64,000 bases of DNA, from positions 1,302,001-1,366,000 of the forward strand of contig NZ_CP031165.1 of assembly GCF_003344865.1 (NCBI RefSeq), written 5' to 3'. Numbering within the stretch: the first letter of the stretch is position 1; every line of letters starts with the position of its first letter. The translations under genes were made by a program, and so were the position numbers. Source of the DNA: Euzebya pacifica (lineage in GTDB: Bacteria; Actinomycetota; Nitriliruptoria; Euzebyales; Euzebyaceae). Under the pieces are notes generated by a model. That model had not been told where the DNA came from, did not search any database, and saw nothing but the letters and a program-made list of their open reading frames with translations. This document shows, piece by piece, positions 1,797 to 22,590 of the stretch.

Positions 1797-1840
1797 TTGT
1801 GTGCGGCTGCATCGACGTGGCTGGCCGCACGCAACCACGG
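1797..1840 (+). repeat. Copy F of the palindromic module-border repeat
   Basis: Arms TTGTGTGCGGC (1797-1807) and GCCGCACGCAA (1824-1834) pair at 10 of 11 positions around a 16-nt loop, followed at once by CCACGG (1835-1840). The arm-loop-arm-CCACGG layout and orientation match the copies at 16457, 18861 and 22125. Confidence 0.6.
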
Positions 1841-2061
1841 TTGTGTGTTCGCGCGTGCTCCAGCTCAGGGCCACCGCGATGTCCTCTGGCCTCGGATGCC
1901 GTGTGTCGTCCTCGAGAACGGTACGGGAAGGCGTAGCCCCAGCCTCCGGTGGTGACGAACGCGATGCAGTCCTCGACGGGCTCAAGACGCCGATGTCTGA
2001 CCTGTGCTCGGGTCCCCACGGGGACGGAAGACAGGGGTGGGTTCGTCGCCCCGAGCGGGCT

Positions 2062-2093
2062 TCCTCCCATTCTCCTCCCGATCTCCTCCCAAT
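2062..2093 (+). promoter_or_regulatory. Arm-type integrase sites of the neighbouring element
   Basis: Three tandem 11-bp units of TCCTCCCAAT type, at 2062, 2073 and 2084, the first two slightly degenerate. They match the three perfect units at 22391-22422 at the same distance from the tRNA-derived core. Repeated short motifs flanking a core are the usual form of arm sites bound by the N-terminal domain of tyrosine integrases. Their presence outside the element supports a second related element to the left. Confidence 0.5.
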
Positions 2094-2187
2094 TTGGTGG
2101 CGGATGAGGGGGTTTGGTGGACAGCGGTGGACAAGCAAATCGGCCGCCGACCCCGCATGATCGCAGGTCAGCGGCCGATTCCTTCTG

Positions 2188-2236
2188 CGCCCCCGGAGCG
2201 ATTCGAACGCCCGACACCTGGTTCCGGAAACCAGTG
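2188..2236 (-). other. att site: duplicated 3' portion of tRNA-Arg(CCG)
   Basis: This 49-bp block repeats exactly the 3' part of the intact tRNA at 22518-22566, from the discriminator through the T arm and variable loop to the anticodon loop and the 3-prime end of the D-arm side. Identity stops at CCAGTG. It is the left attachment site produced by integration into the 3' end of the tRNA gene. Confidence 0.9.
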
Positions 2237-2290
2237 GTGAATCGGGGTAAAAGACCAGCTCAGCGGCCTATCAATGGCCGAGGAAACTTT

Positions 2291-2354: not shown

Positions 2355-3653
2355 ATGCGGCCGGTGCAGGAGATCCAGTTCTTCTCCATCCAGAAGCGCG
2401 ACGCGGGAACGCGAGTCAAGCGGCCCTACATCGTGCGGTACGCCATCGACGGTCGGCAGCGGAGCCGCTCCTTCCGGAGTCGTGTCGAGGCCGACCGCTA
2501 TCGCAGCGAGCTGGTCCGTGCCGCTGGCCGGGGCGTCCAGTTCGACCCCGAGACGGGAGAGCCAGCGTCATGGAAGCTGCCCCTCGGCGAGATGGGCGTC
2601 CACCAATGGGTCCGCCGCTGGCTGGCCGAACAGTGGGTGGAGTGGCAGCCCCGGACACGCGAGTCGGCAGTGGACGCCATGGCCCGATTCGTCATCGCGG
2701 CGCGACGACCCAGGGCTCGGACCCCGGATGGGATGCGGCGATACCTGGTGGGGGCGCTGGCGCCAGATTCCCACCGTGATGAGACCCGGGAACGGTGGCT
2801 GGCCCGCAACTGCCTGACCCTGGACGAGCTGGACGCCGAGGCCGCCAACCGGATCGCCCTGGCCCTCACGTTGCGCGTGGACGGCAGGACCCCCTTGGCG
2901 GCCAACACCGCGAACCGCTACCGGACGACGGCACATGCGTGTGTGATGGCCGCCGTCGACGTCGGCGCACTGCCCAGCGACCCATGGCCACGACGGTCTC
3001 GCTCCCGATCGCGACGGAAGGTGGCAAGGGTTCGGACCGTGGACGTCCGCTCGCTGCCAACGCCGGCACAGATGGCTCGGGCACTGGCCGCGCTGCGCAC
3101 CCACCAGCCGGCAAGCCGCCGCTACCAGGTCATGACCTCCGTCGTGTACTACGCGGGCCTGCGGCCCTCCGAGGTGGTGATGCTCCGGGTCGGTGCGCTC
3201 ACGCTTCCCGAGGACGGCTGGGGAAGCATCCACGTCGTCGAGGCCGAGGACGGCGAGGGGGGCTCCGGTGAACCCAAGACCGGACCGCGCCACGTGCCGA
3301 TCCCCCCGCCGCTGGTCGCGCTCCTGCGCGACTGGCTGGACGAGGCCGGCCTCCAGAGCCGCGATGAGCTGCTCTTCCGGACGCGCACCGGTCAACGACC
3401 GTCCCGGTCTAACTGGCGACGGGCCTGGCTGACCGCGCTTGACAAGGCCGACCTGGCCCCGATGCGGGTCTACGACTGCCGCCACGCCGCCGCCACGACC
3501 TGGCTGCGGGCGGGTGTGCCGCTGGGCGAGACCGCCAGGCGGCTTGGTCACAGCGTCGAGACCTTGGTGTCGGTGTACGTGGGCGCACTCGGCGACGACG
3601 AGAAGCTCGGCAACGCCCGCATCGAGGCCGAGCTGCGCGCCGGCGATGCCTGA
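2355..3653 (+). CDS. Tyrosine-type site-specific integrase
   Basis: A 432-residue phage-type integrase that inserts and excises the element at tRNA-Arg. Residues ~1-75 form a basic, arm-binding-like N-terminus (WxxR-type YIVRYAIDGRQRSRSF). A core-binding helical region follows to ~215, then the catalytic domain. Visible catalytic residues are Arg270 in GLRPSE, a Lys in the EPKTGPRHVPI hairpin, Arg376-His377 in YDCRHAAATTWL, His in RRLGHS and the nucleophile Tyr408 in VSVYVGAL. The usual first His of the HxxR box is Tyr here (YDCRH). The ATG at 2355 is preceded by GGAGGGAG (2341-2348), a strong ribosome site. It stands alone, reading away from the left att site, with arm-type repeats just upstream. 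Confidence 0.95.
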   Translation: MRPVQEIQFFSIQKRDAGTRVKRPYIVRYAIDGRQRSRSFRSRVEADRYRSELVRAAGRGVQFDPETGEPASWKLPLGEMGVHQWVRRWLAEQWVEWQPRTRESAVDAMARFVIAARRPRARTPDGMRRYLVGALAPDSHRDETRERWLARNCLTLDELDAEAANRIALALTLRVDGRTPLAANTANRYRTTAHACVMAAVDVGALPSDPWPRRSRSRSRRKVARVRTVDVRSLPTPAQMARALAALRTHQPASRRYQVMTSVVYYAGLRPSEVVMLRVGALTLPEDGWGSIHVVEAEDGEGGSGEPKTGPRHVPIPPPLVALLRDWLDEAGLQSRDELLFRTRTGQRPSRSNWRRAWLTALDKADLAPMRVYDCRHAAATTWLRAGVPLGETARRLGHSVETLVSVYVGALGDDEKLGNARIEAELRAGDA

Positions 3654-4652: not shown

Positions 4653-5462
4653 TTATGTGATCGTGCGTGCGCAGTACTTCAGCTCCGCGACGTCCGCGGA
4701 CGTCCATCCCGCGTCCCGGACCATGTGCGGCGCCCAGATCTGACCACGCCTGCGCAGGTCCTCCCGCGCGACCGTCAGGTCGGGGTGGAGTGTCCAGACG
4801 TCCGCGTCTCGTGCACCGGAGCCGGCGAGGCTGCGCAAGAGGGCCGCGACATCGTCGGCATCCTGCGTCCGCTTCAGCGACTGCCAGGCGTGGACCTTGA
4901 GGGCCAGGGCGGCAACGGGGTGGGGCAAGAGCACGTCGTCGACAACGACCGTTGACCCATCTGTGAGCAGCGCGCGCACGGACGCCACGCGGGCCGGCAG
5001 CAGGAGCGCGGCCCCCAGGGCCGGGGTCACATCGACCACGAAGTCCCCCGCTGGGACGTTGCGACCGAATCGACCGTGATCGGCCGCACCGAGGAGGTCC
5101 ACGTTCGCCTCGACGTCAGCGGCCACCTTGCGCAACCGTGAGCCGTCGACCTTCTCGAACCCCTGTGACCGCATGGCGACAAGAAGCGGCGCTTCGCGTA
5201 GCTGGGCAACGTCAACACCGAGGTCGGCGTCGGCGGAATACCGCTGGTCCGGCTGTTGCGGCGCAAGGAGCCGCACCGTGAGGAGCGTCATCAGCCCGCC
5301 CACGAGCCTCCACCGCGTGCCCAACGCGGCGTGCGCGGCCGCTGTCATGCCCTCCAGGGCGACGGCCGCACCGTCGAAGGCCCGACTGGGTGACTGCAGC
5401 AGCACCGGCGCACCGGCACCGTGTCCGTCGCCGCTCACCGTTGGACCGCCATGGTGGTCCAT
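4653..5462 (-). CDS. AbiEii-like nucleotidyltransferase toxin
   Basis: 269 residues. The nucleotidyltransferase fold is recognised by WRLVGGLMTLL followed by RYSADADLGVD, which carries the D-x-D metal ligands, and by the helical block HPVAALALKVHAW...DADDVAALL, which corresponds to the K-x-x-A and R/K-D-xx-D region of AbiEii/DUF1814 proteins. AbiEii toxins block growth by adding nucleotides to tRNA or other targets. The family call is from motifs; toxicity is inferred. The start is the ATG at 5462 (MDHHGG). The frame runs further upstream but there reads across the excisionase gene in another frame and is not coding. Confidence 0.7.
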   Translation of the reverse strand: MDHHGGPTVSGDGHGAGAPVLLQSPSRAFDGAAVALEGMTAAAHAALGTRWRLVGGLMTLLTVRLLAPQQPDQRYSADADLGVDVAQLREAPLLVAMRSQGFEKVDGSRLRKVAADVEANVDLLGAADHGRFGRNVPAGDFVVDVTPALGAALLLPARVASVRALLTDGSTVVVDDVLLPHPVAALALKVHAWQSLKRTQDADDVAALLRSLAGSGARDADVWTLHPDLTVAREDLRRRGQIWAPHMVRDAGWTSADVAELKYCARTIT

Positions 5463-5505
5463 TCTCGCTGACCGGTGCCGTGGACGGCTGATGGTCCGCC
5501 GGCGC

Positions 5506-5706
5506 TCACCGCCGCAGCCAGGGCGTCTGGGCGTCGACCCGGTTGGTGTCGACGTACGCGTCCAACGCCGAGGGCTCGAATCTGACGTAGTGCCCGACCT
5601 TGATGAACGGGATCGTCCGCTGGGCAACCGCCCGGCGGATCCACCGGACGGAGACGCCAAGTCGGTCCGCGGCCTGGTCGACGTCGATGAGCGCTTCGGT
5701 CGGCAT
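5506..5706 (-). CDS. Excisionase-like MerR-type HTH protein
   Basis: A 66-residue single-domain DNA-binding protein. LIDVDQAADRLGVSVRWIRRAV is a classic helix-turn-helix 17/excisionase motif, followed by the wing KVGHYVRFEPSALDAYV. Such proteins bend DNA at att sites for excision or act as local regulators. The ATG at 5706 follows AAGGGAG at good spacing on the minus strand. It leads the minus-strand run with the AbiE-like pair, 43 bp before the toxin gene, so excision control and the toxin pair may share a transcript. Confidence 0.85.
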   Translation of the reverse strand: MPTEALIDVDQAADRLGVSVRWIRRAVAQRTIPFIKVGHYVRFEPSALDAYVDTNRVDAQTPWLRR

Positions 5707-5940
5707 GGCAGGTCTCCCTTCGGCGACGCGGCCGACCGGACCGTCCCGGCTGCACGTGGACACCACGTCGGACGGTTCGACGGCCCTTCAAGGGGTTCTG
5801 TGTCAAAGACCCGGCAAAGGATTCTGGACGGCGGTTTCCCGCCACGCCCCCTGACGGACCACCACACCTCTTGCAACTCGGTGAGTTGGGGAGGGCCTGC
5901 GCACCTCCATGGTGATGAGACGAACCTGGGCGGCACAGCC
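5707..5940. other. Intergenic region, candidate oriT / divergent promoters
   Basis: This 234-bp stretch separates the leftward excisionase run from the rightward relaxase. MobF relaxases usually nick just upstream of their own gene. It holds a perfect inverted repeat CAACTC-GGT-GAGTTG (5874-5888) and a smaller GGCGG/CCCGCC repeat around 5830. No known nic sequence is recognised, so oriT is a positional inference. Divergent promoters for both flanking genes must also lie here. Confidence 0.4.
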
Positions 5941-8900
5941 ATGACGGTGTCGATGCGGGCGATGTCGGCCGGTGATGGCTACCGCTACCTGATCGGCTCG
6001 GTCATCGTCGGCGACGGGCCGAGGGATCGGTCGTTGCCGTTGGTGGCGTACTACGCCCAGTCGGGGACGCCGGCGGGCCGCTGGCTGGGTTCCGGTCTCT
6101 CCGCCGTCGGACTTGCCGAGGGAGCGGAGGTCACCGAGGACCACCTCGCGCTGCTGCTGGGTGCGGGCCGGCACCCGGTCAACGGTGGGAAGCTCGGCCA
6201 CGCCTATCCCCGGTACACGACCGTCGCGGAGCGTGTCGCGGCCCGCCTGCGGCAACTCCCGGCCGGAGTGGCCCGGGGAACCGCGGACCGGATCACTGCG
6301 GAGGAAGCCGCCCGGCCCACCCGTCGTGCCGTGGCCGGCTATGACCTGACCTTCTCGGTGCCCAAGTCGGTGTCCGCGTGGTGGGCGCTCGCTGACGACG
6401 CGACGCGCAGGGGGATCGTCGAGGTCCACCACGCGGCCGTCCGTGACGTGCTGGCGTTGATGGAACGCGAGGTGGCGGCCACCCGTGCCGGTGCGAAGGG
6501 CCCCCACGGGGGCGTGCTGCAGCTGGACGTGGACGGGCTGATGGCCGCGGCGTTCGACCATTGGGATTCCCGTGCCGGGGATCCGCAGCTGCACACCCAC
6601 GTGGTGGTCTCCAACAAGGTGCGAACCAGCAGCGACGGGCGGTGGCGGGCGCTGGACGGACGGCCGCTGCACGCAGCGTTGGTGGCGCTGTCGGAGCACT
6701 ACAACGCGTTGCTCGCCGACGGGCTCACCGGCCGGTTCGGAGTGGATTGGGAGCAGCGGCAGCGGGGCCGGGACCGCACCCCGGCATGGGAGATCGCGAC
6801 CGTCCCGCAGTCGCTCGTCGAGGCGTTCTCCCAGCGATCCCGCCGGGTGGACGAGGCAACTGACCGGCTGGTCGACGCGCACCGCACGCAACATGGAACC
6901 ACGCCAGGCAGGCAGACCGTCATCCGGTTGCGGCAACAAGCCACGTTGGCGACACGCCCAGCCAAGCAACAACACTCGTTGGCCGCGCTGACCCGCGCAT
7001 GGAGTGCCCGGGCCCGCGAGGTGCTCGGCTTCGACGCTGCTTGGCTCAGCGTGGCGCCACGCAACGGGGAGCAGTCCCGGGCGTCTGCGGGCCCGATGGA
7101 TCCGCGGGCGATTCACGGGTGTGCGTTGGTCGTGCTCGACGTGGTGTCCGAGCGGCGGGCGACGTGGACCCGATGGAACCTCGTGGCCGAGGCGACGCGG
7201 CAGACCATGCACCTGCGCTACGGCAGCACCGCCGAGCGGGAGGAGGCAGTTGCCGCGATCGTTGCGTCGGCGCAACGCCAGTCGTTGCCCATCACGCCGC
7301 CCGACCTGGCTGCTGTCCCTGCGGACCTGCAGCGCGCGGACGGCAGCTCGCGGCTGCGCCCCAGGCACGCCACCCGCTACACCTCCCGGCACCTTCTGGA
7401 CGCCGAGGACCGCCTCGTTCAACGCAGCCGATCACGGCGCACCGGGTTGCAGATCCCTCCCGCCGAGTCGGGCGCGGTTGCGGCCGTGGCGGCCGGCTTG
7501 TCTGCGGATCAACATGCCGCGGTCGATCAGATCGCCACCTCTGGCCTGCAGGTGGACCTGCTCGTCGGGCCGGCCGGCACCGGCAAGACCCGCACCCTGG
7601 CAATCCTCCGCGCGCTCTGGGAACAGCATCACGGCCCGGGCTCCGTGGTCGGGCTCGCCCCCTCGGCTGCTGCTGCGGCAGTGTTGGGCGAGGAGCTGCG
7701 CATCCCCACCGACAACACTGCCAAGTGGCTGCACGACCACACCCGCAACGGGCGGCGGCTCGACTCCGGTCAGCTGCTGATCATCGACGAGGCATCCCTG
7801 GCCTCCACCCGTGCCCTCGACCTGCTGACCGGCCACGCCCAGGCCGTCGGGGCCAAGGTGTTGATGGTCGGCGACCCCCAGCAGCTCGGCCCGGTCGGCG
7901 CGGGTGGTGTGCTCGGCCTGCTCGCCGGGAGCCGGGCCGACCACCCACGCCTTGAGCAGGTGCACCGGTTCCACCACGAATGGGAGCGGGAGGCCTCGCT
8001 CCGGCTTCGGGACGGCAACCTCAACGCCGTCAGCGCCTACGCCGAACACGGACGACTGCACGAGTGGGCACCGGAGGAGGTGTTGCAGCGGGCACACGAT
8101 GCCTGGAGAGCCGACGTCGACGCCGGCATGGCGTCCATGCTGATCTCGCCCTCCCAGGACCAGGTGACTGCACTCAACCAGCTCGCCCGCAATCACCGCC
8201 AAGTGAGCGGAGAGGTCGAGGCCGGCGATGCCGCCGTCCTGCACGACGGGACGGCCGCAGGTGTCGGGGACTGGGTCATCACCAGACGCAACGCCCGACG
8301 CCACCGGACCAGCGCCGGCCGATGGATCCGCAACGGCGACCGCTGGACGGTCACCCAGTTGCACGTCGACGGCAGCCTCACGCTCACCGGCAACGACCCA
8401 CACGGCGGCGAGGTCACCCTGCCCGCCAGCTACGTCGCCGCCCACGTCGACCTCGGCTACGCGATCACCACCCACCGGGCCCAGGGCGCCACCGTCGACA
8501 CGGCGCACTGCATCATCGGGCCTTCGTCGACGCGGGAGAGCCTGTACGTCGCGCTCACCCGAGGCCGCCAGGCCAACCACGCCTGGATCGCCGACGGCCG
8601 CGACGGTTCATCGGTCCTCGCCGAGGTCCTCCGACGCACAGGTCAGACTCGATCGGCAACCGAGTCCCTTGCGCGGGAGCAGGACCGCTGGACGAGCACA
8701 GCGCAGCTCATCGCCGAGTACGAAACCATCGCCGCCTCTGCCGGCCCGACCCCGAGTGCCGAGACTGCACGCGCCCTGGCCGAGCGGCGACAGCTGCTCC
8801 ATCAGCAGGGCGACCAGCTGCTGCGCGCCGCCATCGCGGAACGGCAGCCCTGGCTTCTCCGGATCGGCAAACCACCCGTCGACCGCGGCCGCCGCCAGCA

Positions 8901-9111
8901 ATGGCTGACCCACGCGCGCACCATCGCCCTCCATCGAGATCGCCACGAGATCACGAGCCCCGAACCACTCGGACATGGGCCAAGGGAATCAGTCCCCGGA
9001 GCGGTGAAGGCACGCCAGGCGGCACGCGCACTGCAGGACCTTCGGCGGCAGGGCACACCAAGCACCCACCGTCCCCCGGCGCGGGAATCTTCCCGTGGGC
9101 TCGCGTGGTGA
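5941..9111 (+). CDS. MobF-family relaxase-helicase (TraI/TrwC type)
   Basis: 1056 residues. The relaxase domain (~1-330) has tandem tyrosines Tyr37-Tyr38 (VAYYAQ), one expected to attack the nic site, and the HUH histidines in DHWDSRAGDPQLHTHVVV (His207, His218, His220). The helicase half has Walker A VGPAGTGKT (~542-550), Walker B LLIIDEAS, a GDPQQLGPVGAGG motif III and the late motif YAITTHRAQGATVD. A basic ~200-residue tail follows. The protein would nick one strand of the excised circle, attach covalently and unwind the DNA for conjugation. The ATG at 5941 is chosen because family similarity starts there; its ribosome site is weak. No coupling protein or mating-channel gene accompanies it, hence mobilizable rather than self-transmissible. 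Confidence 0.93.
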   Translation: MTVSMRAMSAGDGYRYLIGSVIVGDGPRDRSLPLVAYYAQSGTPAGRWLGSGLSAVGLAEGAEVTEDHLALLLGAGRHPVNGGKLGHAYPRYTTVAERVAARLRQLPAGVARGTADRITAEEAARPTRRAVAGYDLTFSVPKSVSAWWALADDATRRGIVEVHHAAVRDVLALMEREVAATRAGAKGPHGGVLQLDVDGLMAAAFDHWDSRAGDPQLHTHVVVSNKVRTSSDGRWRALDGRPLHAALVALSEHYNALLADGLTGRFGVDWEQRQRGRDRTPAWEIATVPQSLVEAFSQRSRRVDEATDRLVDAHRTQHGTTPGRQTVIRLRQQATLATRPAKQQHSLAALTRAWSARAREVLGFDAAWLSVAPRNGEQSRASAGPMDPRAIHGCALVVLDVVSERRATWTRWNLVAEATRQTMHLRYGSTAEREEAVAAIVASAQRQSLPITPPDLAAVPADLQRADGSSRLRPRHATRYTSRHLLDAEDRLVQRSRSRRTGLQIPPAESGAVAAVAAGLSADQHAAVDQIATSGLQVDLLVGPAGTGKTRTLAILRALWEQHHGPGSVVGLAPSAAAAAVLGEELRIPTDNTAKWLHDHTRNGRRLDSGQLLIIDEASLASTRALDLLTGHAQAVGAKVLMVGDPQQLGPVGAGGVLGLLAGSRADHPRLEQVHRFHHEWEREASLRLRDGNLNAVSAYAEHGRLHEWAPEEVLQRAHDAWRADVDAGMASMLISPSQDQVTALNQLARNHRQVSGEVEAGDAAVLHDGTAAGVGDWVITRRNARRHRTSAGRWIRNGDRWTVTQLHVDGSLTLTGNDPHGGEVTLPASYVAAHVDLGYAITTHRAQGATVDTAHCIIGPSSTRESLYVALTRGRQANHAWIADGRDGSSVLAEVLRRTGQTRSATESLAREQDRWTSTAQLIAEYETIAASAGPTPSAETARALAERRQLLHQQGDQLLRAAIAERQPWLLRIGKPPVDRGRRQQWLTHARTIALHRDRHEITSPEPLGHGPRESVPGAVKARQAARALQDLRRQGTPSTHRPPARESSRGLAW

Positions 9112-9742: not shown

Positions 9743-9858
9743 TCACCGTCGCAGCCCCCGACGCAAGCGCAGAATCCACAGCCGCGTCGGCTCAAACCGG
9801 AGGGCGGATGCTCCCTCTGACATCTCCCAGGCCGTCGTCGCTGCCGTCGCGTCGATGG

Positions 9859-11031
9859 TCAGTCGTCGCGCTTACGGCGTCGGTACTCTCGCTGTGCCTG
9901 CGCCCGGGCGCAGGCCCTCGAGCAGTACAGCACCCCCTTGGTGCGGTGCTGCCCGTACTCCGCCCGGCCAGACTGCCGGGCGAACCATGTCGCGCACGTC
10001 TCGTTCGCGCACCGCCTGGCCGGGACGCCAGCGGCGACCCAGTCGACTACCTGCAGCATCATCGCCTGCAGGATCCGGGCGATCGGCCGACCGAACGCGA
10101 GCCCGCCGCGCTCTGCCCCCGGCGGCGCAACCTCGATTCGCGGCGACATGACCGTCTCGACGTTCGTCAACCGCTGGATGCTGCGGATCAGCTCGATGGT
10201 CGTGGACGGGACGGAGAGCCCGTGTCCTTCCCAGAGCGCTGCCAGCTCATCGCGAGGCGGGAGGAGGAGCGCCGCGCGTGTGAGGTCTGTGTCGGGACGC
10301 AGGTGCAGCCACGACTGGACGACCGCCTGATACAGCCGAAAGTGCGCCTGCTGCTGGCCGAGCGCCGTGCCGTAGGCCACCCGCAAGTCGCGTTCCGCGG
10401 AGGCTCGGTAGGTCCCCTCGTAGGACTCCGGGGAATCGCCGAGTCGGTCCGGCTGCTCGTCGAACTCGATCTCGTGCTCGGTGAGGTCCGGTTCGTCGCC
10501 GGCGTACAGCTGCAGTTCCAGGGGATCCTCACTGGACGCGCGCGGCTCGATTACGGGCCGGACCTCCTCCGCATGGAGGTAGAGCCGCTGGGGAACTAGG
10601 GGGCCGTACCGGCTGCACCACCGCAGCACGCTGTTGAGGTCCTCGGCGTCCACCTCGAGGAACCCGCGGAAGACGAGTTCATGCGGCAACTCGACGAGCT
10701 CGACCTCTGAGGAGGAGAAGACCGCCGCGGGCGGCCAGTCGACGGCGGCGCCGATCCTGCGGAGCCCGTCAGCGACGTCGGGGTAGTCCTCGTACAGCGG
10801 CCGGGCGACGTAGACAAGGTCGAGGCTGCCGTGGGCACCATCGAGGATGTCGACGCGCTGGTAGTCGCCGATGTCGTCATCGAGTTCGACCCACCACTCC
10901 TCCTTGTCCGGCTCCTCCGGCCACTGGGTGTCGACGACGGCGAGCAGCCGCGGAGCCCCGACGAGCGTAGGAACCTCCACGGCCCCTGGCCAGGTAGTGA
11001 TACGAAATCGTGTCTGTTCGTCCCTCGACAT
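9859..11031 (-). CDS. CGNR-like zinc-finger protein, paralog 1
   Basis: 390 residues. The N-terminus (RFRITTWPGAVEVP) matches paralog 2 (RFRMTAWPAAVEPP), and both end in a Cys-rich basic finger: RRCANETCATWF, then GQHRTKGVLYCSRAC and an Arg-rich tail. Four cysteines in a C-x4-C ... C-x3-C pattern fit a CGNR-like zinc finger, usually DNA-binding at the C-terminus of actinobacterial regulators. The ~340-residue central part is acidic and unrecognised, so the full role is unknown. The ATG at 11031 has no ribosome site but lies 6 nt past a good -10, which indicates a leaderless mRNA. It follows paralog 2 on the same strand with its own promoter. Confidence 0.8.
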   Translation of the reverse strand: MSRDEQTRFRITTWPGAVEVPTLVGAPRLLAVVDTQWPEEPDKEEWWVELDDDIGDYQRVDILDGAHGSLDLVYVARPLYEDYPDVADGLRRIGAAVDWPPAAVFSSSEVELVELPHELVFRGFLEVDAEDLNSVLRWCSRYGPLVPQRLYLHAEEVRPVIEPRASSEDPLELQLYAGDEPDLTEHEIEFDEQPDRLGDSPESYEGTYRASAERDLRVAYGTALGQQQAHFRLYQAVVQSWLHLRPDTDLTRAALLLPPRDELAALWEGHGLSVPSTTIELIRSIQRLTNVETVMSPRIEVAPPGAERGGLAFGRPIARILQAMMLQVVDWVAAGVPARRCANETCATWFARQSGRAEYGQHRTKGVLYCSRACARAQAQREYRRRKRDD

Positions 11032-11037
11032 ACCCCC

Positions 11038-11066
11038 AGTATGCGTGGCACGGTATCAACAGTCAA
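11038..11066 (-). promoter_or_regulatory. Leaderless sigma70-type promoter of paralog 1
   Basis: Minus strand: -35 TTGACT (11066-11061), 17-nt spacer, -10 CATACT (11043-11038), then 6 nt to the ATG at 11031, so transcription should begin at or next to the start codon. The spacer shares ACCGTGCCACG with paralog 2's ACCGTGTCACG, more than promoter function requires, so it may hold a common operator. Confidence 0.6.
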
Positions 11067-11106
11067 CGTACAACGAGGAGGAGGGGCGGTGAAGGGTCGT
11101 AGCAGC

Positions 11107-12339
11107 TCAGGTGGCGTCGCGCTGACGTCGGCGCCACTCCCGCGACGCCTGATTTTGCGCGCATCGGGCAGAGCAGTAGAGGACTCCCCGCGTGCGGCGC
11201 TGGCCTTTCTCTGCGCGGCCGGTCTGGACCGAGAACAGCCGCCCACAGGTCTCGCTCGCACATCGCTTCACCGGGACCCCTGTCGCTGCCCATGTCACGG
11301 CCTGGAGCGCCATCACCGGCAGAGCGCTCAGCAGCGGTCGACCGTAGATGACCTCCCCGGCGTCGAGCTGCAGTCGCGGGGCGCCCGGGACGGTGTTGGT
11401 GTTGATCTCTTCCATGACAGCATGGGCCAGCTCGAAGCCGGTCGTCGCAGGCTCGAAGCCCCGTCGCCTCCAGATGGCGTGCAGGTCGTCGCGCGGCATG
11501 TCCGCCAGCGCCGCGGACTCGAGATCCGACGGCGTCCAGGACGCCAGGGTCTCGAATACGGCGGCGTAGTAGCGGATGGCGTGACGCTGGACGTCCAGAT
11601 CGTGCAACAGCATCCGCGGCCCGTAGCCCTCATGGTCGACGGGACTCACGTCTCCACTCGGACGAACCAGGTACCGGTAAAGGCTGTAGGAATTCGCGGA
11701 TGGCTGAACCTGCGGGCTTCCGAGCAGCGCCGAAGCCTGTCGCAGTTGATGGGAGCGATCTCCGGCTCGACGCTCGTGAAGGCGGCTGGCGATCTCCAGT
11801 GCGCTCAGACCCTCAGCGATGAGCGCGTCAGCCTCCTCCTCGGTCGCTACATCCCACAGGTCCCAGGGATCGGACGCAGCGTCCCAGCCGACCGGAGCGA
11901 CTGTGTAGAGATCGTCCCTTCCGTCTTCGCGGACCCACAGGGGGCCGTAGCGCATGAGGAAGTCCATCACCGCCGCGTCCGATGGTCGGTCAGGCAGGTC
12001 GACGAGCTCGAGGAACAACTCGGGGGGAGCTTCGACCTCCACGGGCGACGGCGTGAACAGCAGCGTCGCCGAGTCGGTGTAGGAAGCCGGCTCGTGACTG
12101 TCGACTTCGAGGACCAGTTCGTCGGGGTCGCTCTGCTGCCCCGCCGGTACGTAGACGTTCCGAAGGTCCTCGCCCTCCCCGTATGCCTCGTGGCGGACGA
12201 AGCTCGGGAGATCGAGTGGCTGGTCGGTGCCGGGTGCCTGGACGATGCCGATGAGTGGCGCGACCGCGATCTGCGCCGGCGGCTCGACAGCCGCCGGCCA
12301 TGCCGTCATACGAAACCGCAATACATCGTCTGTTGCCAT
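11107..12339 (-). CDS. CGNR-like zinc-finger protein, paralog 2
   Basis: 410 residues. It resembles paralog 1 at the start (LRFRMTAWPAAVEP), in the PxxFLMRYGPLWV-type middle block and at the finger (KRCASETCGRLFSVQTGRAE, then RTRGVLYCSARC and RREWRRRQ). The finger suggests DNA or RNA binding; nothing indicates catalysis. The ATG at 12339 is chosen because a -10 sits 6 nt upstream exactly as in paralog 1, again leaderless. An upstream GTG is possible but lies inside the promoter. It is divergent from the HNH-helicase at 12421, with 81 bp between. Confidence 0.8.
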   Translation of the reverse strand: MATDDVLRFRMTAWPAAVEPPAQIAVAPLIGIVQAPGTDQPLDLPSFVRHEAYGEGEDLRNVYVPAGQQSDPDELVLEVDSHEPASYTDSATLLFTPSPVEVEAPPELFLELVDLPDRPSDAAVMDFLMRYGPLWVREDGRDDLYTVAPVGWDAASDPWDLWDVATEEEADALIAEGLSALEIASRLHERRAGDRSHQLRQASALLGSPQVQPSANSYSLYRYLVRPSGDVSPVDHEGYGPRMLLHDLDVQRHAIRYYAAVFETLASWTPSDLESAALADMPRDDLHAIWRRRGFEPATTGFELAHAVMEEINTNTVPGAPRLQLDAGEVIYGRPLLSALPVMALQAVTWAATGVPVKRCASETCGRLFSVQTGRAEKGQRRTRGVLYCSARCAQNQASREWRRRQRDAT

Positions 12340-12345
12340 GACCGC

Positions 12346-12374
12346 ATTGTGCGTGACACGGTGAGCTCCGTCAA
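12346..12374 (-). promoter_or_regulatory. Leaderless sigma70-type promoter of paralog 2
   Basis: Minus strand: -35 TTGACG (12374-12369), 17-nt spacer, -10 CACAAT (12351-12346), 6 nt to the ATG at 12339. The geometry is identical to that upstream of paralog 1, and the spacer shares the ACCGTG-C/T-CACG core. Binding here could also affect the divergent helicase. Confidence 0.6.
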
Positions 12375-12420
12375 ACGTATGACGCAACCAGCGACGTACC
12401 GGCGCACCGAGGAGCACGCC

Positions 12421-14307
12421 ATGGCCCGCCACATGACCGCCACCGACAAGCAGACGCTCACGCTGTTCACCGCCGGCGCCTGCGCCGGGTGCGGCGCTGA
12501 CCTCCCGGACGGCTGGCACGCCGACCACCGCACCCCGCACGCAGCTGGCGGCCTCACGTCAGCCCTCAACGGCGACCCGCTCTGCCCGCCATGCAACCTG
12601 ACGAAAGGAACGACGATGCCCCACGGCACCACGACCATGACCCTGCGAGACTGGCAGCGCCAGGCCCTCGACCTCTATCGCGACCCCACCCCGCCCTCGG
12701 ACTTCCTGGCCGTCGCGACGCCTGGCGCCGGCAAGACCCGCTGGGCCGCCACGGTCCTCGAGGGGCTCCTCACGACCGGTGCCGCCCAGCAGATCGTCGT
12801 CGTCGTCCCCTCCACCCGTCTGCGGGAGCAGTGGGCGAACAGCCTCTACGCCTCCCACCGCATCGCCCTGAACCCCTCCTGGGCCAACCACAACGGCACC
12901 TGGACCAGCGACTTCCGTGGCGTCGTCGTCACCTACGCCCAGGTGGCCTCCAACCCCGACCTGTTCGCCATGCACTGTTCAAGGACCGACACCGTCGCCG
13001 TGTTCGACGAGATCCACCACTGCGGCGAGCGGCGCAGCTGGGGCGACGCCCTCCGGACCGCCTTCGCTCCCGCCCGGCACCGCATCGCGCTGTCCGGCAC
13101 ACCGTTCCGTAGCGACACAAACCCCATCCCGTTCATCCGCTACACCGACGAGTCCTCAGACCCCGACTTCACGTACGGGTACGACCAGGCCGTGGCCGAC
13201 GGCGTGTGCCGGCGCGTCTTCTTTACCACCGTCGACGGCGAGTTCGAGTGGAGCTCCCGCCCCGGGGAGACCATCTCGTGCGACTTCGACACGCCGCTGT
13301 GGCACAACGAGCTGGGCCGACGCCTCCGCACCGCACTCATGCCCGACGGCGACTACCTCCGTCGCCTCATCAGCGAAGCCCACAACCGCCTCATGAGCCT
13401 CCGCCGCGACCAGCCCGATGCCGGCGGCCTCATCCTCGCGATCGACCAGGACCACGCCCACGCCATCGCGCAGATCCTCCGCGACGAGCACGCCGTCGCC
13501 GCCGTCGTCGCGGTGTCCGACGACCCGACGTCCCAGCAGCACATCGACCGGTTCGCGACGTCCGACGCTCCGTGGATCGTCGCGGTCCGCATGGTCTCCG
13601 AGGGCGTCGACATCCCGCGGCTCCGCGTCGCCGTCCACGCCACGAACACGACCGCCGAGCTGTTCTTCCGCCAGGCCGTCGGCCGGATCGTGCGGCACAC
13701 CGACACCGAACATGAGGACGCCTACTACTTCATCCCCGCCGATCCGCGGCTGCGCGATAACGCCGCCCGGATCGAGGAGGAGCGCGACCACGACCTCGAC
13801 GAGCCCGACGACGACCCCGACGCGCCCACCGACCCACGCGACGAGGAGGACCCACCGCCGACCACGTTCGTCCCGATCGCCGCCCGCGCGACCGTCAAGG
13901 GGATGATCGCCTCCGGGGAGGTCTTCGACGGCGCCGCCCTCGCTGAGGCCGAGCATTTCCTCGCCGCCAACCCCGAGTTCGCCAAGCTGAACGCAGCGGA
14001 GGTCATCCGGCTCAAGCGGGCCCTCGCGTCCACCCAGCCGACGCTGGCCACGAGCACCGCCCCCCAGCGGGACGTTCTTGAAGAGCCTCCGCACCGGCGC
14101 CGCGAGACGCTGAAGAAGCGCAACAGCGAAATCGCCCGCAGGATCGCGTACCGCCACCAGACCGAGTTCCGCGACGTCAACGCCGCGCTCAACCGGGCCG
14201 CCGGGATCCGCCGCGTCGATGACGCCACGATCGAGCAGCTCGAGGAGCGACTGGCAACCGCGACCCGCTGGCTCGCCGGCGGGGGACCAGGCCTGATGCC
14301 GCTATAG
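12421..14307 (+). CDS. HNH nuclease - SF2 helicase fusion
   Basis: 628 residues. The N-terminal HNH domain (~20-65) has Cys21-x2-Cys24, HADH (33-36), GGLTSALN and Cys55-x2-Cys58 followed by NLTKG, all expected zinc and catalytic positions. An SF2 helicase follows: Walker A TPGAGKT (100-106), DEIH (196-199), SGTPFRS (motif III), EGVDIPRL (motif V) and QAVGRIVRHT (motif VI). A very acidic linker (EPDDDPDAP...) and a helical C-terminal tail end the protein. HNH plus an ATP-driven motor suggests nucleic-acid processing, as in restriction-like defence or element replication; the function is inferred. The ATG at 12421 has GAGGAG at 12409-12414. The gene is divergent from zinc-finger paralog 2. Confidence 0.85.
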   Translation: MARHMTATDKQTLTLFTAGACAGCGADLPDGWHADHRTPHAAGGLTSALNGDPLCPPCNLTKGTTMPHGTTTMTLRDWQRQALDLYRDPTPPSDFLAVATPGAGKTRWAATVLEGLLTTGAAQQIVVVVPSTRLREQWANSLYASHRIALNPSWANHNGTWTSDFRGVVVTYAQVASNPDLFAMHCSRTDTVAVFDEIHHCGERRSWGDALRTAFAPARHRIALSGTPFRSDTNPIPFIRYTDESSDPDFTYGYDQAVADGVCRRVFFTTVDGEFEWSSRPGETISCDFDTPLWHNELGRRLRTALMPDGDYLRRLISEAHNRLMSLRRDQPDAGGLILAIDQDHAHAIAQILRDEHAVAAVVAVSDDPTSQQHIDRFATSDAPWIVAVRMVSEGVDIPRLRVAVHATNTTAELFFRQAVGRIVRHTDTEHEDAYYFIPADPRLRDNAARIEEERDHDLDEPDDDPDAPTDPRDEEDPPPTTFVPIAARATVKGMIASGEVFDGAALAEAEHFLAANPEFAKLNAAEVIRLKRALASTQPTLATSTAPQRDVLEEPPHRRRETLKKRNSEIARRIAYRHQTEFRDVNAALNRAAGIRRVDDATIEQLEERLATATRWLAGGGPGLMPL

Positions 14308-14329
14308 CGCCGGCATCGCGACCCGACCG

Positions 14330-14640
14330 CCCGGTCTGCTCGCGCCGCCACTGGAGCTGCCAGCTCTGGCAGCTGGTCGCCTTCCAAGAACTCGTCGGCG
14401 TTGACGGTGACCGACGTCGGTCCCTCGATGATCCCGTTGCCGATGATCGAGGTGACCTCGCCGGACGCGTCGCGGTTACGGGCCCAGGAGCAGGCGACGG
14501 GGTCGAGCCCCTGGGGGCCCGCAGTACGGTAGGTCCGGGGGCAATGTCGACGCCGACCTGCTCAAGAACCACACGTCAGGGCGGTCTCCATTGAGCGCGT
14601 CGTTGAAGAGGCCGGCAATGTCGGGGCCATGGCGCTGTTC
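14330..14640 (-). pseudogene. Remnant of a secreted-protein tail domain, frameshifted
   Basis: Minus strand: DIAGLFNDALNGDRP, then VGVDIAPG, then TYRTAGPQGLDPVACSWARN and VTSIIGNGIIEGPTSVTVNA follow one another in different frames. The VGxDIxPGTYR ... CxWAR ... IIxN ... GPTSVTI pattern is a known small extracellular domain at the ends of actinobacterial and Bacillota surface proteins. At least one frame change falls inside the PGTYR motif and another before it, and no start or signal sequence survives. The C-terminal part runs toward the 3' end of the helicase gene. Confidence 0.55.
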
Positions 14641-14789
14641 TCTTGGACCTCTAAGCCGAGGTGCTGGCCGCGCCGACCAGCCTTCTGGTAGCGGCTCATG
14701 CGGGAGGCCTGCGATCAGGCCAGAGCTGCATCCTTCCCTGCGGCCGCGTAGCTCGGCCGACCTGGGCCGTGACCCACTACCCTGAGCGC

Positions 14790-15083
14790 ATGGGCTGGGA
14801 GGGGCTGACGACGGCGAGGCTCCGCGCTGTCAGGTTCCTCTCACAGCTGCTTACGCCGACGAGGACGCCAACGGCGGCAGGCGATCGACTCGACACGGCC
14901 TATTGGGTTCACTCGGTGCCATTGCTCCTGGCATTGCTCGTGGGTGGGTTCTTGCAGGAGGTGGTCCTTCCCGCCGTGCTATCAGCGACGGCGCCCCGCG
15001 TGGCCATCTCCTGGGCAGCTGCCCTGGGGGTGCTGACGCTATCCATTTGCGGAAGACCTCGGGAGAGGACGACTGACCCGTAG
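14790..15083 (+). CDS. Small two-helix membrane protein, unknown
   Basis: 97 residues from the ATG at 14790 (MGWEGLTTARL). Two hydrophobic stretches, SVPLLLALLVGGFLQEVVLP and VAISWAAALGVLTLSICG, predict a hairpin in the membrane after a basic N-terminus. There is no ribosome site; a TACCCT 6 nt before the ATG could be a leaderless -10, without a clear -35. It is convergent with the minus-strand gene ending at 15089. No family recognised; an accidental frame is possible. Confidence 0.4.
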   Translation: MGWEGLTTARLRAVRFLSQLLTPTRTPTAAGDRLDTAYWVHSVPLLLALLVGGFLQEVVLPAVLSATAPRVAISWAAALGVLTLSICGRPRERTTDP

Positions 15084-15088
15084 GTCGG

Positions 15089-15985
15089 CTACGGACGTTG
15101 CTGCGCGACTGACGGGTCAGCCCCTGCCTTGGCCGCGTGGTAGCTGCGCCTGCTCGAGTAGGCGTTGGCGCACGACGGGGAACAGTGGTCGGCGTCCTTG
15201 CGGCCACGTGTGGTCCTGGTCGCGCGTCCGGACTTAATGGAGAACCGGCCGCCGCAGTTGAGGCAGTCCCGGACCCGGACGTCCCTGGCGTGCAGCGAGG
15301 CGATCTGGCGTGCCGCGGCGGTCCCGCAGGCCGGCGGCTCGTCCGGGACGGGACTGGGGTCGTCGTGGAGGACGAACACGGGGAGCGGTGCGGTGCCGCC
15401 GCACATCTCGTTGATGAGCGCGACGAAGGTCCGCAGCGATCGGCGGCCCGTCTCGGGGGTCGGGCTGCCCGGATCGACCCCGACTCCGTGCCAGGCCGCG
15501 CCTGTGGCGTCGGCGAAGGCCTCGAAGTGGTCGTCGGTGGCGGGGTGGCCGAGCCGACCAACGTGGTAGGCGAGGTCGGCGAGGGTCTTGAGGAGCGCGA
15601 TGCCCCAGCCGGCGGCCCGGACCGGCATCCGCCGCTCCGTGCTCGACGGGTGCTCGAAGTGCATGCCGAGGAGATGGAGTCGTGCCGCGACCCGGAGGGC
15701 GTCGTGGTGCGTCCTGCCGTCATCGAAGGGGCCTGACGGAGCCAACCTGACCGAAGCGGGGAGGTGGACGGGTCCCCAGGCGGTGACCCAGTCGACGACC
15801 TGCGCGGCGTCGTCGGGGTCGGTGTCGCGGACGGACCGGACGAAGAAGTCGGACTCGACCGGCACCGACAGGGACCGGTGGTCGAGCGCCACGAGCGCCG
15901 GCGGGGAGGCCTCGGGTCTGTGCAGGACATGGGGGACCCGGACCCGGTCGGGTGGGTCGAACGTCGCGCGTGTCCGCAACTCCAT
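15089..15985 (-). CDS. CGNR-like zinc-finger protein, paralog 3
   Basis: 298 residues, shorter than and distant from the proteins at 9859 and 11107, but with the same plan: a 'DPDDAAQVVDWVTAWGPV' block parallel to the 'FLMRYGPLWV' block, a helical middle and a C-terminal finger. The finger is CLNCGGRFSIKSGRATR, then ADHCSPSC, then a basic SSRRSYHAAK tail, with C-x2-C rather than C-x4-C. The ATG at 15985 (MELRTRATF) has GGGAGGAG in front, unlike the leaderless pair. Upstream lies a perfect 11-bp inverted repeat, a candidate operator shared with the divergent small genes at 16103. Function unknown beyond probable nucleic-acid binding. Confidence 0.75.
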   Translation of the reverse strand: MELRTRATFDPPDRVRVPHVLHRPEASPPALVALDHRSLSVPVESDFFVRSVRDTDPDDAAQVVDWVTAWGPVHLPASVRLAPSGPFDDGRTHHDALRVAARLHLLGMHFEHPSSTERRMPVRAAGWGIALLKTLADLAYHVGRLGHPATDDHFEAFADATGAAWHGVGVDPGSPTPETGRRSLRTFVALINEMCGGTAPLPVFVLHDDPSPVPDEPPACGTAAARQIASLHARDVRVRDCLNCGGRFSIKSGRATRTTRGRKDADHCSPSCANAYSSRRSYHAAKAGADPSVAQQRP

Positions 15986-16003
15986 GACGATCTCCTCCCT
16001 ATT

Positions 16004-16044
16004 CGCACCTGCCACGAAAAGCTACATGGTTCTTGGCAGGTGCG
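16004..16044. promoter_or_regulatory. Perfect 11-bp inverted repeat, candidate operator
   Basis: CGCACCTGCCA (16004-16014) and TGGCAGGTGCG (16034-16044) are exact reverse complements separated by 19 nt. They lie between paralog 3 (minus) and the 80-residue gene at 16103 (plus). Arm length and spacing fit a site for a dimeric regulator over divergent promoters; the adjacent zinc-finger protein is an obvious candidate ligand. A transcript hairpin is the alternative. Confidence 0.5.
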
Positions 16045-16102
16045 CCGGTGAGGATGTTCCTGGAGCTCGGGACAGCCCCGGCCCAAAGAGAAGGAGAGAC
16101 CG

Positions 16103-16345
16103 ATGGATGTGCTCAACGAAGCCGCAGCGCGGGGCGTCACGGGACCCGAGCCGGACGATGCAGCCCGCTGGACCGCGCAGGGCCTCGCCGATCTCGCGGT
16201 CGTCGTGGCCGACGGCGACGCTGATGTCGTGCGCAGGTGGGCGCGACGGGTCGGGTCAGCCGGCGGCGCACTGGTGCTCCTCGCCGTCACGATGGACCGT
16301 GTCGCTGACCGTGTCGCCGTCGAGGTCGTCGGGGCGGCACGGTGA
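16103..16345 (+). CDS. Small protein of unknown function (80 aa)
   Basis: Starts at the ATG at 16103 with GGAGAG in front (AAGAGAAGGAGAGACCG). The product is Ala/Val/Asp-rich and probably helical, with a mildly hydrophobic segment GGALVLLAVTMDRVADRV. No family recognised. Its stop overlaps the GTG of the next mini-gene, so the two are translationally coupled. Divergent from zinc-finger paralog 3 across the operator-like palindrome. Confidence 0.6.
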   Translation: MDVLNEAAARGVTGPEPDDAARWTAQGLADLAVVVADGDADVVRRWARRVGSAGGALVLLAVTMDRVADRVAVEVVGAAR

Positions 16346-16425
16346 ACGACCGCTTCTGGACCGAGCTGGCAATCGCGTCCGCGCTCGCAGTAGTCGTCGG
16401 CTTGGCGCTGACCGCCTGGGGCTGA
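16342..16425 (+). CDS. 27-residue single-span membrane peptide
   Basis: The GTG at 16342 overlaps the previous stop as GTGA. It encodes MNDRFWTELAIASALAVVVG plus LALTAWG, a short charged head followed by one hydrophobic helix long enough to span the membrane. The stop-start overlap and clean single-helix composition support a real gene. Peptides of this kind can be type I toxins, small regulators or membrane anchors; nothing here decides. Confidence 0.5.
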   Translation: MNDRFWTELAIASALAVVVGLALTAWG

Positions 16426-16877: not shown

Positions 16878-17573
16878 ATGCACGACCTGCCTGTTCCGAT
16901 TCCTGCCGCGTTGACAGAAGCGATCGTTCGGGGTGCCCGCCGCGGCCATGAACTCGCGGCCCGGACCCATAACGACGACGAGTTGTGGGACGAGATGACG
17001 TTCGGGGTGAACCGTCACCGATTGTCGGTCAACTGGATCATGCAGGAAGCCGCCGGCCTCGCCGGCGTGACACCTCAATCGGGTATGGGCGGTAGCAAGC
17101 ACCTGTGCTGCAACGGGTTGCGTTTCAGCTTCCACAACGGCGGCATGAACGCCAAGTGGGACCCCGACACCTACGACTTCGATCGCGGAGCCCGCGGTGC
17201 GATGGCGGACAGCAACGGGCAGCTGTCGATGCTGGCCGACCTCGCCGGGGACGCCGCGATGGTCGACATGGCGCGGGTTCGGGAGTTGGACGTTGTCTTG
17301 GTCGGCAACCAGATGGCCGGCTGTGAGGTTGTCTACCTCGGCGCCCCCGTCGACAGCGACATCGGACGCCGTTGGGGCTGGATCACCATGCTCTGGACCA
17401 TCGGTGACGAGGGGCTCGCCGGTTGGGGCGAGACTGAGGGCGGCGCTCCGCCTCGAGGGCCAGTCGACCCGTCGGGCGGGTATGACGGGTTCCGAGCGAT
17501 GCCCGTGGATGACGTCCCGCCACTCACGGTCAAGCCGACGGTGCGGCCTGCGGAGGGGTCCGGGGCGTCGTGA
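16878..17573 (+). CDS. Unknown protein coupled to XRE/ImmA-IrrE gene
   Basis: 231 residues, ATG at 16878 (MHDLPVPIPAALTEAI). Features: a helical N-terminus (RGARRGHELAARTHNDDELWDEMTFG), a central GGSKHLCCNGLRFSFHNG segment, a beta-like stretch (ELDVVLVGNQMAGCEVVYLG), then WGWITMLWTIG and a Pro/Gly-rich tail. I do not recognise the family. The stop overlaps the next start (GTGA at 17570-17573), so the two proteins are made together. ImmA/IrrE-HTH proteins often cleave or regulate a partner encoded beside them, so this may be the controlled partner or a toxin; that is inference from position only. Confidence 0.75.
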   Translation: MHDLPVPIPAALTEAIVRGARRGHELAARTHNDDELWDEMTFGVNRHRLSVNWIMQEAAGLAGVTPQSGMGGSKHLCCNGLRFSFHNGGMNAKWDPDTYDFDRGARGAMADSNGQLSMLADLAGDAAMVDMARVRELDVVLVGNQMAGCEVVYLGAPVDSDIGRRWGWITMLWTIGDEGLAGWGETEGGAPPRGPVDPSGGYDGFRAMPVDDVPPLTVKPTVRPAEGSGAS

Positions 17574-18664
17574 TGTCGCCGGCTGCTGCAGCGGCCGCGT
17601 TCGACCCAAGCCGGTTGCGGCTCGCCCGCCAACTGCGCGGACTGTTGTTGCGCGAGTTGGCCGAACGCGTCGACGTCAATCCATCTGCGATATCCCAATA
17701 CGAACACGGCCACACGACACCGAGCCCAACGACGCTGCGTCGCCTCGCGCTCGCGTTGGCAGTCCCGCCCGGGTTTCTCGCCACCAGTCGCCCGATGCAC
17801 GGGGTGGACCAGAGCGGTGCACACTTCCGCAGCCTGCGATCCACTACCAAACGCGAGCGCAGCACCGCCTTTTCTCAAGCGCTGCTGGTATGGGATCTCG
17901 CTCGCATCCTCCAAGCCCACATCGACCTCCCCGTCGTTGACGTGCCCGATATAGCCGTTGACGGTGACGCTGACGTGAACGAAATCGATGACATCGCCTG
18001 GGAGGTCCGCCAAACCTGGAGCATCCCGGATGGGCCTCTCAGCAATGTGGTCAGGCTGATGGAACGCCACGGGATCCTGGTCGTCCGCGCCGCGCTGAGT
18101 ACCCGTCGGGCCAACGCCTTCTCCTACGACTTCGGTGACCGGCCCGTCGCGGTGCTAGGCACAGAAAAGGCGAACACGCTGCTGTCGCGCTTCGACGCTG
18201 CCCACGAGTTGGGCCACCTCGTCATGCATCACGAGGCCGAGCCCGGCGACGGCAAGCTGGAATCACAGGCACACGCCTTCGCGGCCGGACTTCTGATGCC
18301 ACGGCGGCTTGTCGAGCCACTGCTTCCCGCCACGTTCACCGTGTCGGAGTTGATCGCCTTCGCCCACACCTGGGGGGTGTCGATCGCTGCTGCGCTCTAT
18401 CGGGCCCGCAGCCTCGGGGTGATGTCGGACTCGGTCTACCGGCGGGCGGTCACATGGATGAGCGCGCAGGGTTACCGGCGCGACGAGACCGCGCTTGTGG
18501 GGGATGTTGGCCCGCCCGAGCAGCCGATCCTGCTGCAACGCGCAGTTGAGCTGCTAGCCGACATGGAAGGGCTGACCGTGTCGCAATCCTTGGCCGCGCG
18601 CCACCTCGACATCGACGTGCTGCAACAGTTGCTGAACAGCGCCCGACCGTCGGTTGAGTTGTGA
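17570..18664 (+). CDS. XRE-HTH plus ImmA/IrrE metallopeptidase
   Basis: 364 residues. The N-terminal helix-turn-helix (~10-70: RLRLARQLRGLLLRELAERV ... SAISQYEHGHTTPSPTTLRR) is XRE-type. A linker leads to an ImmA/IrrE (DUF955) domain with the zinc-protease motif HELGH at 212-216 (FDAAHELGHLVMHHE) and the downstream E-xx-A-xx-F-A-x-x-LLMP block (ESQAHAFAAGLLMP). Such proteins repress through the HTH and can cleave a repressor or partner on a signal, as ImmA does in ICEBs1. The start is GTG 17570 or ATG 17573, overlapping the preceding gene. The pair is bounded by border repeats A and B. Confidence 0.9.
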   Translation: MMSPAAAAAAFDPSRLRLARQLRGLLLRELAERVDVNPSAISQYEHGHTTPSPTTLRRLALALAVPPGFLATSRPMHGVDQSGAHFRSLRSTTKRERSTAFSQALLVWDLARILQAHIDLPVVDVPDIAVDGDADVNEIDDIAWEVRQTWSIPDGPLSNVVRLMERHGILVVRAALSTRRANAFSYDFGDRPVAVLGTEKANTLLSRFDAAHELGHLVMHHEAEPGDGKLESQAHAFAAGLLMPRRLVEPLLPATFTVSELIAFAHTWGVSIAAALYRARSLGVMSDSVYRRAVTWMSAQGYRRDETALVGDVGPPEQPILLQRAVELLADMEGLTVSQSLAARHLDIDVLQQLLNSARPSVEL

Positions 18665-21935: not shown

Positions 21936-22105
21936 CTCGCGCGCGCAAAGGGTCACCGCAACGGCGCCACGCGCCGACGGGCTGACCATCACCCCAACCC
22001 AGCATCCACCGACCGCCGTCCACTGGCCCGTCGGTACGGCCCCTCGCTGTGGACGGGCGCCATAGGCGATCCCCCGCTCTCCGTCGGTAGAGGGTGGCCT
22101 TGCCG

Positions 22106-22169
22106 CCCCCCGGATCGCGACGTCGTTTTGGGCGGCGGGGAGCTTCCTCGACGCCGCCCATAGCCACGG
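22106..22169 (+). repeat. Copy C of the palindromic module-border repeat
   Basis: CCCCCCGGAT lead, arm GTTTTGGGCGGCG (22125-22137), a short loop with GAGCTTCC, arm CGCCGCCCATAGC (22152-22164; 11 of 13 pairs) and CCACGG (22164-22169). It runs straight into the 403-bp end repeat of the element, as copy F does at 1835. Confidence 0.7.
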
Positions 22170-22566: not shown

Positions 22567-22590
22567 CTCTATCCCCTGAGCTACGGGGGC
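22518..22590 (-). tRNA. tRNA-Arg(CCG), integration target
   Basis: Minus strand. The acceptor stem GCCCCCG (5') pairs fully with CGGGGGC (3'). The D arm contains GCTCAGGGGATAGAGC. The anticodon stem CTGGT/ACCAG closes loop TTCCGGA, giving anticodon CCG (codon CGG, Arg). The T loop contains GTTCGAATC. The discriminator is G and CCA is not encoded. The element's end regenerates the 3' half, so the tRNA stays functional. Confidence 0.96.

Follow-up and report, generated by a model that had tools for sequence, protein, structure and literature searches.

Finger proteins beside an HNH-helicase gene in a mobile element of Euzebya pacifica and a palindrome that is probably their operator

What role do three related finger proteins play beside an HNH-helicase gene on an integrated element of Euzebya pacifica? 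The locus lies in a 64,000-nucleotide (nt) stretch of contig NZ_CP031165.1 (positions 1,302,001 to 1,366,000), here called the window, and comprises the open reading frames (ORFs) P0001, P0002, P0003, and P0004, all present where the initial annotation had placed them (Table 1). That annotation suggested that CGNR-like zinc-finger proteins serve as recognition or regulatory subunits of an undescribed helicase-nuclease system carried as cargo. The finger proteins constitute a single actinobacterial family, borne on mobile elements, whose members probably bind DNA as dimers; whether they are autoregulating sensors that control a mobile nuclease-helicase cargo, the reading that we prefer, we judge to be about evenly balanced.

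The proposed relationship among the three proteins was borne out. P0001 and P0002 are paralogs that align from end to end (33% identity; E 1e-42), and P0004, whose BLAST match to them lies mainly within the finger (E 2e-5 to 3e-5), was recovered at E 2e-17 by a family hidden Markov model (HMM) built without it. Because of this match, and because its VPVESDFFVRSVRDTDPDDAAQVVDWVTAWGP stretch fits the middle motif of the family, P0004 is on sequence grounds a true, if very divergent, member; its finger has C-x2-C instead of C-x4-C, and its branch is by far the longest in the family tree. The family has a common N-terminal motif (RFRxTxWPG), a middle motif (LPxxFxLRELxELDxxDxxAVxxFxxxYG), and a C-terminal motif (CxNETCxxxF..QxGRAxxGQxRTxGVxYCSxxCARAQAQRExRRR).

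The likeness to CGNR fingers held in profile-profile comparison but not at the level of Pfam. When the family profile was aligned by hhalign with those of eight genuine CGNR proteins from related genomes, a match of 92% probability (E 5e-7) was obtained over 48 finger columns, and the treble-clef type Cys arrangement of the family could be aligned to genuine CGNR fingers. None of the window finger proteins matched Pfam zf-CGNR at E ≤ 0.1; 6 of 10 family members matched weakly, below threshold (best E 0.14; 11.1 bits in the member shown versus a cut-off of 24). The family lacks the CGNR motif, with CARAQ at that place, and had no match to the ABATE domain PF07336 at E ≤ 5. It resembles ABATE-CGNR proteins (PF07336 + PF11706; Jann_2411) in its C-terminal four-Cys treble-clef-type finger, basic helix, and possibly ligand-sensing N-terminal part; beyond the features just named, it differs in a longer linker between the Cys pairs, in being borne on mobile elements, and in its tie to nuclease and helicase genes. 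No model in Pfam, NCBIfam, PHROG, or PADLOC covers the window finger proteins, bar one weak PHROG HNH match of P0004. The AlphaFold model of P0001, with a mean predicted local distance difference test (pLDDT) score of 56, was useless for fold search, and a pLDDT 82 model of a compact homolog matched nothing in the PDB above background, a result that is no evidence of a new fold. By these comparisons, the finger family appears as an undescribed one that is only remotely CGNR-like.

We inspected 36 streptomycete finger loci, which are mutually related and whose counts are therefore not independent. Clustering of their neighbours identified a small gene of ~160 aa, divergent from the finger gene in all 36, in which the H-E, P-D, and D-A-K residues of PD-(D/E)xK nucleases are invariant in 17 sequences; the Pfam matches to Hjc, PDDEXK_5, and AHJR-like models were subthreshold, and sequence searches of the PDB gave nothing meaningful for either this gene or the finger proteins. 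Its product carries the PD-(D/E)xK motif and is a putative nuclease. This ~160-aa family (L079:7420-7893 and 35 other streptomycete loci) is itself undescribed, and it was always divergent from the finger gene where checked. Directly 3' of the finger gene, 24 of the 36 loci have a gene for a TtrA-type DEAD/DEAH SF2 helicase with HA repeats, the finger stop and helicase start often overlapping or lying 1-3 bp apart. Along its whole length, one of these helicases shares 74.5% identity with a helicase encoded near the end of NC_004933 (Streptomyces lividans 1326, 50 kb), a replicon that we take to be SLP2; many close relatives lie within a few kb of replicon ends and face inward. The finger-linked helicases fit TtrA because of this identity and this terminal, inward-facing position. 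TtrA has been described as a helicase that SLP2 needs for conjugation, its gene lying at the replicon end and transcribed inward (PMC8743542). An obligatory partnership between the finger and TtrA was rejected, since TtrA-type helicases were found in 107 of 150 Streptomyces genomes versus 8 of 150 for the finger, making the finger an accessory. The window has neither streptomycete partner; the gene divergent from its finger gene is the HNH-SF2 helicase, so that the layout of nuclease, helicase, and finger is parallel and recurs with unrelated parts.

Two other accounts of these proteins turn on this layout. They could be CGNR-type transcription regulators and nothing more, functionally unconnected to the enzymes apart from autoregulation, their neighbours being a chance gathering of mobile genes. 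CGNR proteins have been proposed to be dimeric DNA-binding regulators (PMC2954205), and finger-family members of other clades adjoin tyrosine integrases or stand alone; yet chance falls far short of explaining a divergent nuclease-type partner at 36 of 36 loci and a coupled helicase at 24 of 36, and the cassette described below moved as one unit between two elements, which leaves this account improbable. A helper module for the transfer or replication of mobile replicons, in which the finger, bound to element DNA, would recruit or regulate an SF2 helicase and a nuclease in conjugation or end processing, would suit the reported role of TtrA, the position of some finger loci near replicon ends, the family members that abut tyrosine integrases, and the MOBF relaxase of the window element. 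We nevertheless find such a module rather unlikely, given the accessory standing of the finger among Streptomyces genomes and the movement of the cassette as cargo between elements with only distantly related relaxases.

The evidence for autoregulation comes from the short gap, 64-94 bp, that separates each streptomycete finger gene from its divergent nuclease-type neighbour. In 31 of the 36 streptomycete loci, this intergenic region contains the palindrome TACGAA-N10-TTCGTA, flanked by outer GT and AC, at positions -48 to -51 relative to the finger ATG; a spacer of 10 stands out, being found in these 31 loci, and other spacers in 0 to 7. The right arm of the palindrome lies 15-16 bp before a TATGAT-like -10 box (ten loci measured). 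Two unrelated groups have the palindrome where their family genes begin: in Streptomyces it overlaps the -35 region of the finger promoter, and in the genus of the window it overlaps the first codons, about 4-11. Having been derived from Streptomyces, the 22-bp palindrome was used as an independent probe on the window, the window genome, and the sister genome G024. At ≤3 mismatches, there were four matches in the 64-kb window, about the number expected by chance, but three lie at the starts of P0001, P0002, and P0004. At ≤1 mismatch, the only match in the whole 6.37-Mb genome is the P0001 start, and the only perfect copy in G024 is at the start of its middle finger gene. We then randomised codons, keeping the protein and drawing from the codon usage of the element, and scored how often a match as good as that observed or better arose; p was about 0.001 for P0001, 0.005 for P0002, 0.001 for the G024 middle gene, and 0.03 for the G024 first gene. 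The palindrome was absent from eight TtrA loci without a finger gene and from 64 kb around genuine CGNR genes. It is probably the finger family's own operator, and its binding by the fingers is predicted. Of the two roles first offered, regulation is thus the better suited: both the palindrome conserved where the genes begin and the divergent arrangement speak more strongly for DNA-binding proteins that regulate themselves than for recognition subunits. Streptomyces genome G470 has finger genes with the palindrome near both chromosome ends, in inverted orientation (G470:C1:19236-20098 and G470:C1:8480912-8481775), and this pair probably lies inside terminal inverted repeats.

Controller (C) proteins of restriction-modification systems are small helix-turn-helix (HTH) DNA-binding proteins that are encoded beside a nuclease gene and have a palindromic operator at their own promoter. 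The finger proteins are like them in lying beside a nuclease gene and having a palindromic operator-like site at their own gene start, and unlike them in being zinc-finger rather than HTH proteins, in their long extra domain, and in a cassette that lacks a methyltransferase. Two finger-family members (L054:1640-2686 and L055:8346-9362) do carry a C-terminal homeodomain-like HTH extension; HTH_23 was matched by 2 of 10 members (best E 0.01).

The same cassette recurs in the sister genome G024, there near another relaxase that shares about 50% identity with that of the window. Positions 9830-14285 of the window are about 80-95% identical to G024 at the nt level, except for the middle gene (11200-12400), at about 45-60%. 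P0001 shares 86% aa identity with the first finger gene of G024, and with ratios of nonsynonymous to synonymous substitution rates (dN/dS) of 0.24 and 0.14, respectively, P0001 and the helicase gene are under purifying selection. P0002 and the G024 middle gene are only 41% identical (dN 0.62), between cassette neighbours that are 86% and 93% identical; identity reaches 83% in the last residues of the finger, and it is the N-terminal and central part that varies. In the tree, P0002 groups with the G024 middle gene (support 99/99), a grouping at which, the tree tool warned, long branches meet, and P0001 groups with the G024 first gene (100/99). Since each pairs with its G024 counterpart, P0001 and P0002 appear to be two old paralogs, the P0002 lineage being exchanged or fast diverging; the idea that the G024 middle gene is an unrelated insertion was rejected, as it belongs to the P0002 lineage. 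The cassette moved as one unit between these two elements, and relaxases so dissimilar indicate that it did so as cargo. No counterpart of P0004 was found beside the G024 cassette; although a member of the family, P0004 is not part of the conserved cassette, and its inclusion in the proposed system is to that extent not upheld.

A hypervariable gene between conserved neighbours leaves a sensing or specificity role that the fingers may fill. If they were specificity subunits directing the HNH-helicase to its DNA target, with the middle gene setting that target, the divergence of P0002 around a conserved finger end would be what is expected of a recognition part swapped on a constant core. The variability lies outside the predicted DNA-binding finger, though, while divergent transcription and the palindrome fit regulators, and a finger partner is lacking from most P0003 helicase relatives; we therefore hold this explanation to be unlikely.

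P0003 was confirmed as an HNH-SF2 helicase fusion divergent from P0002, with 81 bp between the two genes. Four Pfam models exceeded their cut-offs, namely HNH (25.4 bits; cut-off, 21.4), ResIII (49.6; 22.5), DEAD (27.5; 26), and Helicase_C (24.3; 23.5), and Walker A, DEIH, and motif VI are recognisable: an HNH domain is joined to a complete SF2 core. At E ≤ 1e-30, 15 of the 30 genomes examined from the order contain relatives, nearly all of them aligning only from the helicase core onward; HNH-fused relatives are on three Streptomyces plasmids and probably in one phage. Those on the plasmids (L060:6986-9474, L061:6971-9531, and L062:6923-9698) have no fingers, and each overlaps or abuts a downstream gene of ~205 aa that looks like one family. 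In defence libraries, the best named relatives of the core are PbeA and the Dnd-associated restriction helicase TIGR04095 (PADLOC E 9e-24; NCBIfam E 7e-15), but the match is partial (55 versus a 600-bit cut-off), and the window cassette shows no sign of modification genes. PADLOC gave only partial helicase matches for P0003, none for the fingers, and no complete known defence system. P0003 belongs to the same broad group of SF2 helicases as TtrA, the partner type of the fingers in Streptomyces, but it lacks HA repeats, has an HNH domain, and shows no detectable blastp relation (E > 0.3); the notion of a single helicase family was rejected. Just as most TtrA-type genes lack a finger partner, the HNH-helicase usually occurs without one. 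The expected co-occurrence was therefore seen in part: finger relatives often adjoin SF2 helicases, but most pair with the TtrA type or with none. Fingers do occur beside helicases, and the helicase is not always found without them.

The spread of the family is sparse. Besides the Streptomyces genomes counted above, it was found in 10 of 396 genomes of the phylum, with 49 loci in the species collection and 14 plasmid records; one locus is in genome G135, of the same class as the window host, and among 30 genomes of the order, fingers were present only in the window genome and G024. Phage records yielded no finger-family protein. Viral contigs had no match to P0002 or P0003 alone, and two contigs matched the family alignment.

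Table 1. Positions of the cassette, palindromes, and other element features in the window
Feature	Coordinates	Strand	Description
P0001	9859..11031	-	390 aa finger-family protein, cassette gene 1
P0002	11107..12339	-	410 aa finger-family protein, cassette gene 2, hypervariable
P0003	12421..14307	+	628 aa HNH-SF2 helicase fusion, divergent from P0002
P0003, HNH	about 12481-12612		Domain
P0003, SF2 core	about 12637-13700		Domain
P0004	15089..15985	-	Very divergent third finger-family protein; ATG at 15985, ORF open to 16015
Palindrome, P0001	11001..11022		TACGAA-N10-TTCGTC, 1 mismatch, near codons 4-11
Palindrome, P0002	12309..12330		TACGAA-N10-ATCGTC, 2 mismatches, at 5' end, 91-112 bp before helicase start
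Palindrome, weak copy, P0004	15986..16007		3 mismatches, directly before ATG; could be chance
9-bp perfect inverted repeat	12304..12384		CGTCATACG / CGTATGACG, arms 63 bp apart, between P0002 5' end and helicase start
Tyrosine integrase of element	2355..3653	+	
TrwC/MOBF relaxase-helicase	5128..9111	+	
RosmerTA-type pair	16878..18664	+	RmrT-like 16878-17573; RmrA-like 17570-18664 (HTH + M78 peptidase)
Left direct repeat	1824..2243		92-95% to right repeat
Right direct repeat	22153-22573		Ends inside tRNA-Arg 22517-22590

The claim of a single mobile element was likewise sustained, by an integrase, a TrwC/MOBF relaxase, and ~420-bp direct repeats at tRNA-Arg that delimit an integrated element of ~20 kb. 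No conjugation machinery was identified among the element genes scanned, so the element looks mobilizable rather than self-transmissible. Its end repeats (1147-2243 and 22080-22573) are longer than usual, with ~420 bp plus weaker similarity beyond, and may stem from an earlier or nested integration. The element also carries, 2.6 kb from the cassette, a RosmerTA-type pair (RmrT-like, E 1e-6; RmrA-like, E 2e-97), and in G024 a two-gene BovA (Borvo-like, CHAT) system (L026:15402-17503) lies 0.1 kb from the cassette; the anti-phage activity of both kinds has been validated in other work (PMC12322248). In the wider family, Lamassu genes, JetD, DrmD, AbiTii, and others are among 116 neighbours, a tally that has no control set and is not used as proof. 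The idea of an undescribed helicase-nuclease cargo thus stands as far as the family lies beside SF2 helicases and nuclease-type genes, in a cassette movable beside two known defence systems, and is weakened by the HNH-helicase relatives, which are mostly without fingers.

In the mechanism that we favour, the C-terminal treble-clef finger would bind the palindrome as a dimer, and the finger proteins would repress their own promoter and that of the divergent nuclease(-helicase) gene until the long N-terminal and central part senses a trigger and releases repression. The tandem sensors P0001 and P0002 would restrain the HNH-SF2 helicase until foreign or processed DNA is met, which the freed enzyme would then unwind and cut. 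The cassette would travel as cargo of mobilizable elements among other defence genes, its central sensor exchanged or diverging fast. We infer both the binding of the palindrome and the function of the cargo, for which defence appears more likely than DNA transfer because of the cargo behaviour, the neighbours, the variable sensor, and the helicase relatives in restriction systems; transfer is possible and is favoured by the TtrA and integrase partners.

Several observations weigh against autoregulated defence cargo. The reported requirement for TtrA in SLP2 conjugation (PMC8743542) speaks for a transfer role. The HNH-helicase cassette is known from two genomes only, and the G024 copy has a frameshift in its HNH part (possibly an assembly error) and Lys in place of the central Asn, suggesting that the nuclease is not always kept. 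In the genus of the window, the palindrome overlaps the conserved RFR codons, so its conservation is partly at the protein level, and the streptomycete counts share the dependence noted above.

It is conceivable, as a tentative proposal, that these loci represent an unrecognised class of mobile, self-regulated nuclease-helicase defence modules, in which a finger sensor-repressor with its own operator would control interchangeable nucleases (PD-(D/E)xK or HNH) and interchangeable SF2 helicases, and the sensor domain would diversify by allele exchange in an arms race. The 22-bp palindrome offers a testable molecular handle for an unannotated protein family, and the hypervariable putative sensor gene is one place in which to seek a trigger. 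Genes listed as "hypothetical" on Streptomyces linear plasmids are tied to a recurring nuclease-finger-helicase layout, which raises the question of whether some TtrA-type helicases serve conflict rather than transfer.

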